Source: a virus. Taken from it: a stretch of DNA of 22,705 bases. The notes beneath the pieces were generated by a model, which was not told where the DNA came from, ran no database searches, and was given only the letters and a program-made list of their open reading frames with translations. The DNA is taken from positions 1 through 22,705 of IMG/VR virus record IMGVR_UViG_3300008516_000144, one strand, 5' to 3'. Both the position numbers and the translations under genes were made by a program. Each line of letters begins with the position of its first letter. Positions within the stretch are counted from its first letter, which is position 1. This document shows positions 2,708-17,567 of the stretch, piece by piece.

Positions 2708-4144
2708 TTACCTCGGTGTGTGCAGCAAATCCCTATCGCCGCAATAGTCGTAGAGTTCCTTGCCCAGCGGTGTCCCGTGTCCGCCGTCCACGAAGTAGGC
2801 GCTGGCGGGGTTCGGGTCAGGATAATGCTGAGGCGACCGCACGCACACATTGGTGATCCGGCCTTGCAGCCACGGCGCCAACACGATGACCCTCGGCTTA
2901 AGCAGCACAGATGCGGTATAGCACCACTTGATGCGCTCGACGGTCCAGAGGAAACGCCCGCCATCGCTGGCGAATAGCGCGGCCTCCGGGTTGGGCAGGT
3001 TGAACATCTTCTGATCGGGTGCCTTCTCCATGTCCTGGAATTCGCCGAACACCAGCTCCATCGGCCCGTGCCTGCGAGTGAGTAGGAACAGGTCCGCGCA
3101 GGTCGCGTCGCCAAATGCCAGCCCTGTGGTTTTCGTCACGGTGGAATCCTTGAGATAGGGGATGTCCACGCCATCGATGTGCAACACCTGGTTGGCCACC
3201 ATGTTGTCCCGGAAGCGTGCCGCGCCGTCTGCGCTCAGGTTGAGGGCTGTGCTACCCACGCCCGCCAGGCATGGATAGTAAGTGCACGCCAAGCAGTCGA
3301 TTATGCCGTCGATGACCTCCGGCGCGCTCACCCATACCATGTCGGCGGGGTTGATCGACTCGTTGAAGGACATCATGGCCCGCATCTGGATCGTCCGGTA
3401 GAGCTGCGTCATGTACTGGTAGATGTTGTAGGGGTTGGTGCTGTTGGTGTCGCAGACGAACTGGTTGTTGAATGCCTTCACATCCGAATCCGCCGCGGCG
3501 CATAGCGCACCCGTCTCCACGTCCCGGTAGCCCGTGTTGATGAGCATGTCGAGGCCCTTGAACTCCCGATAGCCGCCGAGGGCGCTGTTATTGGCCGGTG
3601 TGCCAGGCCACATCATCTGGTTGAGACGACCCCGCATGGCAATCCCCGCCATGGTCCAGGCCCACTCGTCATCCCTGGTCACTGGCGAAGGCAGCGCGCC
3701 GGTGTTCCGCTCCGAGCCGTATATCCTACGCACGGGATACTGGCTGGATGGGTTCACCCCCATGTCATCGGCCAGGAACTCCGGCGTCTCGGTACAGAGG
3801 CGCCCAAAGCAGAATGAGATCTCGCAGCCCTTGAACACATAGCTGGGACAGGTGGTGCATGGCCCAGTCTGGTTCGCGCCGCAGTGGTCCTTGGTCATCT
3901 GCGAGATAAGTGCCTGCTCGCGGTTGCGGTCGACACTGGGATACCAATTCATCCACGCGGCGATGCCCACATCGCTGAGTGCCGCGTTGAGAATCGTGTC
4001 ATCAGCCCGATAGCTGAATAGCCCCTGCTGCCCCAGCCAAGGCGGAACAACCGGGGTGCCTACCGGCGCCTTCCCCCCTACCGCCATCTGCTTCGCAGCG
4101 ATGGCGAGGGCATTGGCGACGGCTTGTTGTACATTGTCCATCAT
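2708..4144 (-). CDS. putative major capsid protein (HK97-fold), cysteine-rich
   Basis: This 478-residue protein follows the protease/scaffold gene, the usual position of the major capsid protein. I rest the call on context, length and a mixed alpha/beta sequence without signal peptide or membrane segment, not on a diagnostic motif. The first visible feature is a cluster of six cysteines at residues 88, 96, 99, 107, 112 and 117, with more further on (for example in DCLACTYYPC). This could hold a metal or form disulfides in the shell; both are inference. Two ATGs lie at 4144 and 4141 after AGGAGGTAA; the second has the better SD spacing (6 bases), so the protein may begin MDNVQQ. The start lies 7 bases after the previous stop. 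Confidence 0.7.
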   Translation of the reverse strand: MMDNVQQAVANALAIAAKQMAVGGKAPVGTPVVPPWLGQQGLFSYRADDTILNAALSDVGIAAWMNWYPSVDRNREQALISQMTKDHCGANQTGPCTTCPSYVFKGCEISFCFGRLCTETPEFLADDMGVNPSSQYPVRRIYGSERNTGALPSPVTRDDEWAWTMAGIAMRGRLNQMMWPGTPANNSALGGYREFKGLDMLINTGYRDVETGALCAAADSDVKAFNNQFVCDTNSTNPYNIYQYMTQLYRTIQMRAMMSFNESINPADMVWVSAPEVIDGIIDCLACTYYPCLAGVGSTALNLSADGAARFRDNMVANQVLHIDGVDIPYLKDSTVTKTTGLAFGDATCADLFLLTRRHGPMELVFGEFQDMEKAPDQKMFNLPNPEAALFASDGGRFLWTVERIKWCYTASVLLKPRVIVLAPWLQGRITNVCVRSPQHYPDPNPASAYFVDGGHGTPLGKELYDYCGDRDLLHTPR

Positions 4145-12904: not shown

Positions 12905-13308
12905 TTGCCCTTCGGCCTATTGCTGATCGTCTCATTATACCCATCGGCCGCGCCAATGGTCTGGTCGCGTCTGCCTTTGAAATAGGCCACACCATCCATA
13001 GAACCGAAATACCAGCCCTGGTAGGGAACAAAGGTCCAAGCTACTTTGCGTTGATCCCAAATTGGGATGAATTTCGGCCAATTCTTGACAATGTAAGTCC
13101 TCTTGAATTGTGGCTGTAAGCCAGCTTTCCGCCTTTTGCGCTTGCCCTCAATATGCCGAGCAATGACAGTTTTGGGAATAGGCCCATCTTCCTCCGTTGG
13201 CCCGCTCATGGCAACCTCCATCGCGGCCTCTTCCAAGCGCCTTTCAGCCCGCTCCGCCATTTTCCTTTTGAATTCGGCCCGTGACCGGGGGTCTTTAAAC
13301 TTAGGCAT
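12862..13308 (-). CDS. basic hypothetical protein downstream of ParB-like gene
   Basis: A 148-residue protein with the ATG at 13308 behind AAGGAGGAAGAG. It begins MPKFKDPRSRAEFKRKMAER and is strongly basic over the first third, with HIEGKRKRRKAGLQPQFKR in the middle, then an aromatic stretch (WDQRKVAWTFVPYQGWYFG). The charge suggests nucleic-acid binding; no fold is recognisable. It overlaps the ParB-like gene by 8 bases and is the last gene before P1, so it is probably made with the ParB-like protein and could be its partner. Confidence 0.7.
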   Translation of the reverse strand: MPKFKDPRSRAEFKRKMAERAERRLEEAAMEVAMSGPTEEDGPIPKTVIARHIEGKRKRRKAGLQPQFKRTYIVKNWPKFIPIWDQRKVAWTFVPYQGWYFGSMDGVAYFKGRRDQTIGAADGYNETISNRPKGKEEPGVHVALLPAP

Positions 13309-14335
13309 CTCTTCCTCCTTCTAGTTTTTCGATTAGCTCGTCCTCATAACCCCTTATGTCCTCAAGCCGGGTCAGAACGAATTCCTTCGCTTCTGGTGAG
13401 AACTTGCCCTGGTCAACTTGCTCCAAAGCCACATATACCGCCTTACTCCATTCCCTTGCAGCATCGAGGAAGTCCTTGACTTTTCCCGTGGCCTCATACC
13501 GCTTCTGCTTCGCCCTTGCAGTTTCCGCCTTTTCCCTCGCCCTCTGGGCAGCTCGCATATCCAGGGCCTTGTCCACAGCCTCCTCTTCAAGCTCCTGCGC
13601 GGGCCTCACCCAGGGCGTCTCTAGTAGCACCTCCAACGCTTCAGGGTCATCCTCCACCGCCCGCACCGCCTTGGTCATTTCGCCTACCGCCTGGGAGCCC
13701 CCGATTTCCTCTTGGGCCAGCTTCTTCGCCACCCGCTCCTGCAACTCTGAACGTCCAGTGAGGCCCTCCGCAACATGCCGTGCCTGGCTAGATGTGATTT
13801 CGCCTTTGGAAAGCATCTGGCGGACGGGGGGGGCGATGGACTTGTAGGCAGATAGCCAGTTCTCCACCGAGACGAGAGAACCGAAACGCACCTTCAACTT
13901 GCCCAAAGGGTCGCCACATCGCTGATTGAGGTCGGCCCAACTGCCGTGACGACGATAAGAATCAACAAAGGCAAATGGGGTAGGCAACTTGCCATCACCG
14001 GTGATGGCAAATTGCTTCTCCAGCCACCTCCACACCATCTCGCCCTTCTCCACCTCCGAGTGCGGCCGCGTGCCTATCTCCACGGCAATTGAGGCCAGCT
14101 CATAATCATCGGCTTCGTAGAGCGTTACAGGCGCGCTCTCCGCTCCCATCGCCTTCAGCGCGGCCAGCCTGCGATGTCCGTCCACCACCTCATAACCACC
14201 CTCCACCTCACGCACTAACAGGGGGTAGATTAGCCCCACTTCTGCTTGCTGCTTCAGTTCCTCAAAGTCCTCCTTTCCATAAGTGTCTCTGACCTGATAC
14301 GGCGATGGCCTAATCTGGTCAATCCTCAGTTTCAT
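13301..14335 (-). CDS. ParB-like nuclease-fold / CTPase DNA-binding protein
   Basis: A 344-residue protein beginning MKLRIDQIRPSPYQVR, the usual ParB/Srx opening ('i.PnpyQPR'). GYEVVDGHRRLAALKAMG (residues 47-64) is the conserved 'y.iidGerRl.AlkalG' motif, here with GHRR at 53-56. The central part, VENWLSAYKSIAPPVRQML then SKGEITSSQARHVAEGL, resembles the helix-turn-helix-bearing ParB middle domain. The C-terminal third is a charged, coiled-coil-like helix. No parA-like gene is next to it, so it may be a regulator or packaging/replication factor rather than a partition protein. Promoter P2 with a short leader and AAGGAGGAG lies directly upstream. Confidence 0.82.
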   Translation of the reverse strand: MKLRIDQIRPSPYQVRDTYGKEDFEELKQQAEVGLIYPLLVREVEGGYEVVDGHRRLAALKAMGAESAPVTLYEADDYELASIAVEIGTRPHSEVEKGEMVWRWLEKQFAITGDGKLPTPFAFVDSYRRHGSWADLNQRCGDPLGKLKVRFGSLVSVENWLSAYKSIAPPVRQMLSKGEITSSQARHVAEGLTGRSELQERVAKKLAQEEIGGSQAVGEMTKAVRAVEDDPEALEVLLETPWVRPAQELEEEAVDKALDMRAAQRAREKAETARAKQKRYEATGKVKDFLDAAREWSKAVYVALEQVDQGKFSPEAKEFVLTRLEDIRGYEDELIEKLEGGRDA

Positions 14336-14465: not shown

Positions 14466-14681
14466 TTACTCCTGCCGCATCCGCACGGTGCAGTTCACAC
14501 CAGCCTGCGGGCTCCGCCGCGACTGCGCCTTCACACCGGCCCTCTCGTTTGATGGCGGCTTCTCGTTGGGATTGCCTAGCGTAGGCTTCTCGTTCGTGTT
14601 GCCGCGGTCATTCCCGTTCCCCGCTATGGCCATTGCCACCAAGCCAAGCCCCATGACCCTCAAGAACTCTCTGCGCTTCAT
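14466..14681 (-). CDS. small exported protein with Tat-like signal
   Basis: I start at the ATG at 14681 (MKRREFLRVMGLGLVAMAI), 71 residues, since GGAGGAGGAGAA precedes it and it overlaps the previous stop (ATGA). The N-terminus has KRREFLRVMG, very close to the twin-arginine S/T-RR-x-F-L-K motif, then a short hydrophobic segment ending near AIAG. The mature part is polar, low in complexity, with NEKPTLGNP and NEKPPSNER as an internal repeat, and a basic tail with a single Cys. Export through Tat or insertion as a small membrane protein is inferred. No family is recognised; such a signal is unusual in a phage. Confidence 0.65.
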   Translation of the reverse strand: MKRREFLRVMGLGLVAMAIAGNGNDRGNTNEKPTLGNPNEKPPSNERAGVKAQSRRSPQAGVNCTVRMRQE

Positions 14682-15091
14682 TTCTCCTCCTCCTTTTTGC
14701 ACTTATGATTTTTGAAACGGTGGCGTCGGTCCTTCTCCTCCAGTATCAACTCGAACTGCTCGATCATAGCCTGCCCCAGGTTATAGGCTTCCGCCGCGTC
14801 CCCCAGCGCTTCCCGCGTCTCGCGCCGCAACGCTTCCCGGACGCACCTCGCCTTCCATGGCTGGCTGTATCGCTTCACGCATTCCGGGTGGTAGAGCGCG
14901 CGGCAGAAGTCGCACGCGAATTCGTAAGTCGCCTTGTTCGGCTTGATGATATCGTTTTTAAGATGGCCAATTATCCCCTCCAGGAGATCCCAATAGACCT
15001 CTATGGGCACGTCCAACGAACTAGTGAAGGGCTCAAGCTTCAGGCCTTCCGGCAAGCTGCGACCACGGCGGGTATAAAGACTTACCGTCAT
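14678..15091 (-). CDS. hypothetical protein after the replication protein
   Basis: I start at the ATG at 15091 (MTVSLYTRRGRSLPEGLKLE), 137 residues, because it makes an ATGA overlap with the upstream stop. The middle holds FACDFCRALYHPECVKRY, with CxxC and a later Cys/His, perhaps a small metal site. The C-terminal half is helical (EALGDAAEAYNLGQAMIEQF) and ends in a Lys/Glu-rich tail. No family recognised. It is coupled to the replisome-organiser-like gene on one side and to the Tat-signal gene on the other, so a helper role in replication is possible but only by context. Confidence 0.7.
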   Translation of the reverse strand: MTVSLYTRRGRSLPEGLKLEPFTSSLDVPIEVYWDLLEGIIGHLKNDIIKPNKATYEFACDFCRALYHPECVKRYSQPWKARCVREALRRETREALGDAAEAYNLGQAMIEQFELILEEKDRRHRFKNHKCKKEEEK

Positions 15092-15825
15092 TTCGCCTTG
15101 CTCTCTTCTGGTCCTTTTATCGTGAGCTCCCATTCCGGGCCAACATGCCGCCGTAGGATATCTTTTGTCCGCTTCATAGACCTCGGTTGGTTCAATGCTT
15201 CAGCGCTCAGGGCGCTGGCGCAGACGATGGTCATTTCGCGCTCGTTGCCGTTTATGCTTGGAATTATCGCTGCTCTCAGGTAGTGGTCGTCGTAGTAGGC
15301 CCCTGGGATTCCTGCCCTTAAACCACGAAGGAAAGAAAGGCCGTAATTCTCTGAAACTTCTTCTTTTCTATTTTCTTCTTCTATACTCTTCTCTAATGTA
15401 CTCTTATCTACTCTTATCTTATCTACTCCGACATTTGGCCTTTTCTGGTCTTTGTCGGCCTTTTGCGGCCTTTTGCGGTCTTTATCCCTTTCATAGTCGT
15501 GATAGTCCCGCTGGCGCTCGGTTAGCGCGTACTTCGACCAGCTCAAGACCACCAAATCTGCGCCTTCTTCCTTCAGCCTCGGGTCCGGCCCCTCGAGGCA
15601 TTTTCGGATGGTGCTTTGGAGCGTCCGCCACGGGGTGTTGCTGATGCGCCTGACCCTATTTGCGCCGCCCACTATCCGACCCTCCCGGTTGTCCATATAT
15701 GCGATGGCCAGAAAGTCGACCCACGCACCCCTTTCGCTCGGCGTCAAGTCGTCCCGGATACTGCCGAAAAGCCATTGTTGCACGTACAAGGGAAACCAGA
15801 TGAATTGTCTTTTGGGTCGTGGCAT
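15088..15825 (-). CDS. replisome organiser / replication initiator-like protein
   Basis: A 245-residue protein. Residues 1-100 (FIWFPLYVQQWLFGSIRDDL then TPSERGAWVDFLAIAY) look like the winged-helix N-terminal domain of phage replisome organisers. Residues 105-160 are a charged linker rich in Lys, Arg and Asp. Residues 163-238 (LRAAIIPSINGNEREMTIVC, AEALNQPRSMKRTKDILRRH) resemble the small alpha/beta domain at the N-terminus of DnaA, which contacts helicase loaders; that match is by eye. The linker DNA contains 10-bp repeats beside an AT-rich stretch, like the origin inside lambda O. GGAGGG lies 11 bases before the ATG. No helicase or polymerase gene is in the window. Confidence 0.7.
   Translation of the reverse strand: MPRPKRQFIWFPLYVQQWLFGSIRDDLTPSERGAWVDFLAIAYMDNREGRIVGGANRVRRISNTPWRTLQSTIRKCLEGPDPRLKEEGADLVVLSWSKYALTERQRDYHDYERDKDRKRPQKADKDQKRPNVGVDKIRVDKSTLEKSIEEENRKEEVSENYGLSFLRGLRAGIPGAYYDDHYLRAAIIPSINGNEREMTIVCASALSAEALNQPRSMKRTKDILRRHVGPEWELTIKGPEESKAK
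15399..15428. repeat. AT-rich 10-bp direct repeats
   Basis: The plus strand reads TACTCTTATC at 15399 and again at 15409, with a related TTATCTACTC at 15419 and a further TACTCTT at 15384. The period is again 10 bases, out of step with codons, so it is not simply repeated amino acids. Confidence 0.6.
15431..15490. repeat. 10-bp iterons, consensus TTTTGCGGCC
   Basis: Successive plus-strand decamers are TTTTCTGGTC (15441), TTTGTCGGCC (15451), TTTTGCGGCC (15461), TTTTGCGGTC (15471), with partial units either side (ATTTGGCC before, TTTATCCC after). Four units in exact 10-base phase equal one helical turn each, as for protein-binding iterons. The period is not a multiple of three, so protein repeats do not explain it. 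Confidence 0.75.
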
Positions 15826-15903
15826 ATTGGTTTTACCCTCCCTGCCGTTACCAGTTCGCCCAATCCTGGCTTATGGGGAAATCGTACAGCTCAATCCGCT
15901 TCA

Positions 15904-16472: not shown

Positions 16473-16818
16473 TGGCATCACCTCCTTTCTCTCCCCACCG
16501 GTCTATCGGACAATAGCTCTTCTTGGCGTCTGGATGCCTACACCTCAATGTGCCGTCCCCGGGAAAGATTTCATATGAATTAGGGCCAAGTCCCGCGACT
16601 GCTTTACGAACATAATACCGCCAATAGAAACAGGGTATACCATCGATGCGCGCGCCACAGAACTCGTGCTCGCCAGGCTTGGCGGTTAGCTTATGGATAA
16701 TCTTCCGGATACTGTTCGAAAGCCAACACCCCACCCCAACTGGGGCAATCAAGCCACCATCGAATAATCGTTTTTCGAGTACTTCCGCCTGTGCAGGTGT
16801 CAGCCTCACCTCATTCAT
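16462..16818 (-). CDS. hypothetical protein with Cys/His-rich half
   Basis: I start at the ATG at 16818 (MNEVRLTPAQAEVLEKRLFD), 118 residues, behind GGAGGAGGGAG. The N-terminal half is helical (SNSIRKIIHKLTAKPGEHEF). The second half carries Cys and His residues (FCGARIDGIPCFYWRYYV, LRCRHPDAKKSYCPIDRW) that could hold a metal. No family recognised. It overlaps the RusA-like gene by 4 bases and the zinc-motif gene by 11, so it belongs to the same coupled group near the replication genes. Confidence 0.65.
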   Translation of the reverse strand: MNEVRLTPAQAEVLEKRLFDGGLIAPVGVGCWLSNSIRKIIHKLTAKPGEHEFCGARIDGIPCFYWRYYVRKAVAGLGPNSYEIFPGDGTLRCRHPDAKKSYCPIDRWGEKGGDANAR

Positions 16819-17234
16819 CTCCCTCCTCCCCACCTAATCGTAATCCTCAGAAAAGCCTCCTTCGCGCTTCCCCCTACTCGATAGCCCAGATCGTGCCACC
16901 GAAACTCACGGTCGTTGATGCCCGTTGCCGCCTGCACCGCGTCGCCAATGAGCTTATGCAGATTAGCCAAGTCGGGACACGCTCGCTTGTTCACGAAATG
17001 GCCATAGAGATATATTTCGATTGGCGGCCTTGGTGGATTCGGCACTCGTTGCAGCGCGGGCTTTATCACCATCGCGAGGTCGTCCCGCCACTTTTCTGCC
17101 TCCCACCGGAGCGCACGGCCTCCTGTGCGAGTTCTGGTATAGCAGTGGTTCACACTGCACGTCTGGGCGTCCACATATGGCCAGCTAATGGAGATGTGGC
17201 TTTGCCCTATCTGCACTCCGCAATCCCATACCAT
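16815..17234 (-). CDS. rusA: RusA-like Holliday junction resolvase
   Basis: A 139-residue protein of typical RusA size. CPDLANLHKLIGDAVQAATG (residues 86-105) matches the RusA core 'p D.dNl.K...Dal.g', followed by INDREFRWHDLG with the conserved Asp (D108). The acidic residues D88, D98 and D108 and K94 fit the metal-dependent active site. RusA cuts four-way junctions made during recombination or replication, helping to resolve branched phage DNA before packaging. The ATG at 17234 has GAGG nine bases upstream and overlaps the membrane-protein gene by 50 bases; a GTG at 17216 is an alternative start. Confidence 0.82.
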   Translation of the reverse strand: MVWDCGVQIGQSHISISWPYVDAQTCSVNHCYTRTRTGGRALRWEAEKWRDDLAMVIKPALQRVPNPPRPPIEIYLYGHFVNKRACPDLANLHKLIGDAVQAATGINDREFRWHDLGYRVGGSAKEAFLRITIRWGGGR

Positions 17235-17475: not shown

Positions 17476-17493
17476 TCCCTCCCCTCCTCTCAG

Positions 17494-17567
17494 CAGCCCT
17501 GACGGGATTCGAACCCGCGACCCCTGGCTTGACAGGCCAGTGCTCTAGTCCACTGAGCTACAGGACT
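17494..17567 (-). tRNA. tRNA-Asp (anticodon GTC)
   Basis: The minus strand folds as a full cloverleaf. The acceptor AGTCCTG pairs with CAGGGCT (one G-T pair), and the D-stem GCTC pairs with GAGC. The anticodon stem CTGGC/GCCAG has loop CTGTCAA, so the anticodon is GTC. The T-stem GCGGG/CCCGT has loop TTCGAAT. The base after the acceptor is G, the usual discriminator for Asp. CCA is not encoded. It sits between two small protein genes in the same direction. Confidence 0.95.

Follow-up and report, generated by a model that had tools for sequence, protein, structure and literature searches.

Replication origins embedded in the gene of their own initiator are already established for the bacteriophages lambda and SPP1. 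In lambda, the origin lies within the initiator gene O and consists of iterons followed by an AT-rich tract (PMC7466680). In SPP1, oriL is found in gene 38, which codes for the replisome organizer gp38, and both its direct repeats and its AT-rich unwinding element are inside the gene (PMC6316719). For P1 RepL/oriL, an origin has been postulated inside the initiator gene, where synonymous base changes were tested (PMC9948254). Binding of the helicase by domain I of DnaA, a fold that reappears below, has been demonstrated for E. coli DnaA only (PMC5448010).

The window analyzed here is an entire IMG/VR record of 22,705 bases from a bacterial virus in an environmental sample, classed as linear and possibly a fragment. 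An initial annotation had flagged 15347–15490 as a candidate origin with 10-bp iterons inside an initiator gene. The segment 15344–15486 is highly likely to be a phage replication origin located in its own initiator gene, in the part that encodes the linker between the protein's domains; judged from the sequence, it is very probably an embedded origin of the lambda/SPP1 type. This reading is supported because the repeats surpass those of shuffled sequences, the weakest duplex and the strongest predicted curvature coincide with the site, both ends of the protein resemble replication domains, and the same layout recurs in a survey of distant phage genes. The features are as follows (coordinates in the window, strand, description and basis):

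15088–15825, minus strand: putative initiator gene, 245 aa, holding the candidate origin (ORF)
15481–15813, minus strand: N-terminal domain, residues 5–115, DUF1376-like, presumed origin-binding winged helix (profile comparison)
15437–15446, plus strand: iteron 1, GGCCTTTTCT (sequence)
15447–15456, plus strand: iteron 2, GGTCTTTGTC (sequence)
15457–15466, plus strand: iteron 3, GGCCTTTTGC (sequence)
15467–15476, plus strand: iteron 4, GGCCTTTTGC (sequence)
15477–15486, plus strand: iteron 5, GGTCTTTATC (sequence)
15441–15482, no strand: helically phased A/T tracts; no other 42 bp of the window has so strong a predicted intrinsic curvature
15344–15424, no strand: AT-rich tract, candidate DNA unwinding element (GC 27.5%, the weakest duplex in the window)
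15362–15431, minus strand: 14 pentamers nnAGA in exact 5-base phase; the purine-rich strand is the coding strand
15091–15360, minus strand: C-terminal domain, residues 156–245, predicted DnaA-domain-I (KH-like) fold (AlphaFold2 and Foldseek)
16815–17234, minus strand: gene of a RusA-like Holliday-junction resolvase, lying upstream of the putative initiator gene; context of a replication/recombination module

The initiator gene is preceded by a good ribosome-binding site, GGGAGGG at 15836–15842, read directly from the sequence. No Pfam, PHROG or NCBIfam model matched the 245-aa protein and, at the sensitivities used, no close relatives of it were found in IMG/VR, GTDB genomes, INPHARED phages or PLSDB plasmids. 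Residues 5–52 were compared with a DUF1376 profile made from five phage proteins not selected by the query (L011, which had been picked through the query's own motif, was left out); the hhalign score was 33.2, the best of 200 shuffles reaching 19.5. The curated Pfam model of DUF1376 (PF07120) did not match the protein, and the likeness comes from a profile comparison of about 45 residues only; the N-terminus therefore resembles DUF1376 and is termed here DUF1376-like, not a member of that family. Proteins of the DUF1376 type, or similar to it, match the PHROG annotations 'primosomal protein' or 'replisome organizer', and DUF1376 genes of other phages were located beside a DnaB helicase gene (L016), beside a DnaA-like gene (L017) and near a primase gene (L018). 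In L017 (2449–3024), the gene immediately after the phage DUF1376 gene encodes the C-terminal, box-binding domain of DnaA.

The AlphaFold model of the whole protein was too poor (pLDDT 45); the C-terminal 90 residues modelled alone with AlphaFold2 gave a fair model (pLDDT 77, pTM 0.67). Among the Foldseek matches listed for solved structures, DnaA domain I (4tps_B) had the top TM-score (0.63/0.68, probability 1.00), and the C-terminus is accordingly predicted to adopt the KH-like alpha/beta fold of that domain, a likeness at the level of fold only. The Foldseek E-values were about 0.02 and other KH-like folds appeared as well; since ribosomal S3 KH domains were similar by E-value, the DnaA reading of this domain rests on TM-score and context. 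The curated Pfam model DnaA_N (PF11638) did not match the protein. When viral models were searched, Brevibacillus phage SecTim467 supplied the second-ranked match, its replication-initiation protein (TM 0.68, probability 1.00). Taken with the RusA gene nearby, the two remote domain likenesses favor the view of the initial annotation that the protein is a phage initiator, but no profile matched it directly.

The iterons and the AT-rich tract sit in the linker between the N- and C-terminal domains. The decamers had been described as 'four or more' in exact 10-base phase; the phase and the sequence proved correct, and the count could be refined to five units at 15437–15486, with the plus-strand consensus GGYCTTTTSY (TTTTGCGGCC when read in another register). 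Tandem Repeats Finder, run on the whole window, gave its two top scores to the AT-rich array (69) and to the adjoining iteron array (52). Period-10 agreement was seen at 29 of 37 positions in the GC-rich array and at 66 of 97 over both arrays. When the codons of the whole gene were shuffled synonymously 10,000 times, the score of the GC-rich array was rarely equalled (P = 0.0003) and that of the combined array never (0/10,000); when synonymous codons were reshuffled within the linker only, P was 0.0014 for the GC-rich array. Since none of the 10,000 linker-only shuffles reached the combined score, the period belongs to the DNA and not to the protein, as had been proposed from its being out of step with the codons. 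The tandem direct repeats inside this coding sequence thus exceed what the protein requires. When the codon-aware repeat statistic was applied to the 15 long genes of the window, the initiator gene stood out (Z 8.0), and no such signal was detected in the 14 other genes (best Z 2.3).

Tandem-repeat and PWM scans of the record revealed no second iteron array; the array was found only inside the initiator gene. An inverted unit at 15336–15346, on the far side of the AT-rich tract, was rejected, since its PWM score ranked only 17th in the window and did not rise above background. No other phages with the same iteron were found. The predicted curvature of the 42 bp within the iterons was 84.6, against a window mean of 18.5 (s.d. 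10.1), in a wedge model with which a simple count of A-tract phasing concurs.

The tract of about 80 bp adjoining the iterons is poor in GC compared with the record (57.5%), and is the window minimum in both GC content and thermodynamic stability at scales of 40, 60, 80 and 100 bp. An easily melted tract therefore lies next to the repeats, as it does in lambda and SPP1. The initial annotation was right to place an AT-rich stretch beside the iterons; the 10-base repeats that it saw there have a basic period of 5, not 10, and correspond to the nnAGA pentamers. This tract also has a weak 5-residue period at the protein level (VDKIR/VDKST, a 15-bp period).

The lambda origin is similar in having iterons in mid-gene followed by an AT-rich tract, bent iterons with an A-tract core, and nearly identical nucleotide positions (PMC7466680). 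Tested in the same way, the lambda O gene gave a layout matching that of the window gene, in agreement with the initial suggestion of a shared plan: the repeats and the AT-rich tract lie at gene nt 348 and 465 in lambda O, and at 342–388 and about 430 in the window gene. However, the lambda iterons are 18 bp long and spaced 20–24, while those of the window are 10 bp long and in exact tandem; further, no sequence relation of the window protein to O was detected, and no lambda P-like helicase loader gene was recognized adjacent to it. SPP1 oriL likewise has repeats and an AT-rich element within the gene of the origin-binding protein (PMC6316719), although in SPP1 the origin is duplicated, with oriR at another site. 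P1 RepL/oriL is like the window gene in that its origin, too, is postulated to lie within the initiator gene (PMC9948254).

A similar domain order was found in the initiators of Brevibacillus phages SecTim467 and Jenst, which have a DNA-binding N-terminal domain, a repeat-bearing linker with an AT-rich tract, and a DnaA-domain-I C-terminal domain. In SecTim467, HTH_36 is followed by a linker with DNA-level repeats and an AT tract, and then by DnaA_N; none of 19 other genes of that phage stood out in the codon-aware repeat test. These initiators differ from that of the window in that their N-terminal domain is HTH_36 and not DUF1376-like, their repeats are of about 22 bp, and they match Pfam DnaA_N directly.

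The array might instead be an operator through which the initiator or the replication operon is autoregulated. Initiators often repress their own genes by binding to iterons, and the array does sit inside the operon. An operator would, however, be expected near a promoter and not 340 nt into the gene; nor would it have any need of a neighboring melting-prone tract of 80 bp, and the order of iterons followed by an AT-rich tract copies that of known origins. We consider the operator reading very improbable.

The initial annotation had named relatives with the protein linker but not the repeats as a finding that would count against an embedded origin; in the absence of close relatives, a more general version of that check was made by surveying a wider class. 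The set comprised 39 dereplicated relatives of L010, a DnaD-like phage gene (PHROG 2514/186, 'DnaD-like helicase loader'); these relatives (L021–L083) are not demonstrated homologues of the window protein, and they show how the class behaves, not the window sequence. The codon-aware repeat test was positive for 32 of the 39 DnaD-like genes and for 1 of 39 neighboring ORFs, a separation which suggests that origins in metagenomic phages might be found systematically from sequence. Since local codon bias could pass for repeats in whole-gene shuffles, a strict test was also used, with local-block shuffles and offsets that were not multiples of three; it was positive for 20 of the 39 genes and for none of the 39 controls. 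Lambda O, the positive control, was detected by both the codon-aware statistic and the strict test. In the L010 family, the repeats peaked at gene nt 361 (IQR 350–384) and the AT minimum was at 446 (IQR 412–454); the repeats lay upstream of the AT minimum in 32 of the 39 genes.

In a second family (L004–L009), the two members scanned gave weak matches to PHROG replisome-organizer or primosomal families. At gene nt 412–447 of L004 (gene L004:1265–2047, minus strand), 12-bp near-palindromic iterons (TTGCCGCGGCAA, GTGCCGCAGCAA and ATGCCGCGGCAA) are followed by an AT tract, and the arrangement is similar in L005, L008 and L009. The codon-aware repeat test was not significant for L005, L009 and L011, nor for the short genes L015 and L018, and L004 failed the out-of-frame repeat test. 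Across these distant families the linker repeats differ in sequence yet keep the same place, which suggests that the arrangement of an origin embedded in its initiator gene is common among them. The DUF1376/DnaD-like primosomal and replisome-organizer genes (PHROG 2514, 186, 9327 and 13246) are thus like the window gene in a remote N-terminal similarity to DUF1376 and, in most members tested, in having repeats in the linker and then an AT tract, at matching positions in the gene; they differ in their repeat sequences (e.g. the 12-bp TTGCCGCGGCAA of L004) and in that none was seen to have a DnaA-domain-I-like tail.

These observations also bear on a neutral origin of the repeats, in which a disordered linker rich in Lys, Glu and Arg would have grown by replication slippage and left functionless tandem repeats in the DNA. 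The linkers are indeed of low complexity, and the weak protein period in the AT-rich tract fits such a history. Nevertheless, the motif is kept although the 10-bp units are out of step with the codons, the array adjoins the stability minimum of the record, and in most of the 39 genes surveyed the repeats occupy the same place, as a rule immediately ahead of an AT tract, while the neighboring genes lack them. Neutral expansion therefore appears unlikely.

In the mechanism that we infer from the sequence for an embedded origin, covering binding, melting, helicase recruitment and origin activity, the first steps are modelled by analogy on lambda O (PMC7466680) and SPP1 gp38 (PMC6316719). The N-terminal DUF1376-like domain would bind the five 10-bp iterons; spaced by one helical turn, these would all face the same side of an intrinsically bent DNA, so that the bound protein would form a compact nucleoprotein complex. 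This complex would strain and open the adjoining AT-rich tract, whose pentamer repeats may be held single-stranded on the purine-rich strand, and the DnaA-domain-I-like C-terminal domain would bring the host's replicative helicase or helicase loader to the tract once it is open.

What is new here is very probably a further origin of the embedded type, in an initiator that carries no annotation and ends in a DnaA-domain-I-like tail; the figure for repeat prevalence in DnaD-like phage genes may also be new, within a limited literature search. A specific candidate origin is thereby located in an uncultivated phage whose initiator is recognized by no profile library, and a function is pointed to for DUF1376-like phage proteins. 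More tentatively, the initiator could be an origin-binding domain fused to a DnaA-domain-I-like helicase-recruiting tail with the origin in the linker, and one instance of a rule by which the origin sits at a set position inside most DnaD-like/DUF1376-like phage initiator genes, the repeats and the protein evolving as one portable, self-contained unit. If this rule were true, phage origins would be predictable from a single gene.

The recognizable genes of the record (terminase large subunit, terminase-small-like, Mu F-like, ParB-like and RusA) are all on the minus strand. Only weak phage matches were obtained for the terminase and, at the sensitivities used, neither it nor the ParB-like gene had close relatives in IMG/VR. 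No switch in GC skew was seen at the site; in a linear record whose recognizable genes all share a strand, skew is uninformative. No DnaA boxes (0–1 mismatch) were found at 15344–15490, and the scattered matches elsewhere were near chance; a bacterial oriC-type origin was rejected, there being no DnaA box cluster at the site. No helicase or helicase loader gene was recognized in the window, a record that may be a fragment.

The ParB-like gene (13301–14335) has the replication gene on one side and the terminase genes on the other, with no recognizable ParA. The array could in principle be a parS-like partition site for the product of this gene, which is about 1 kb away, and some plasmids have iteron-type centromeres. 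The lack of a recognized ParA gene, the confinement of the array to the initiator gene and the presence of repeats at the same place in many phage initiators all speak against a partition site, which we regard as very improbable.

Several minor observations were made. The gene at 14678–15133 overlaps the 3′ end of the initiator gene, in the position of a helicase loader, and could not be firmly assigned to any family; its CxxC motif, after which comes a further Cys, hints at a metal site. An Rfam scan detected only a tRNA, and no RNA element at the iteron/AT site; the tRNA-Asp gene is located at 17493–17567 on the minus strand. In L010, an array of 18 copies of a 27-bp tandem repeat is present at 3032–3527, an unrelated part of that phage contig.
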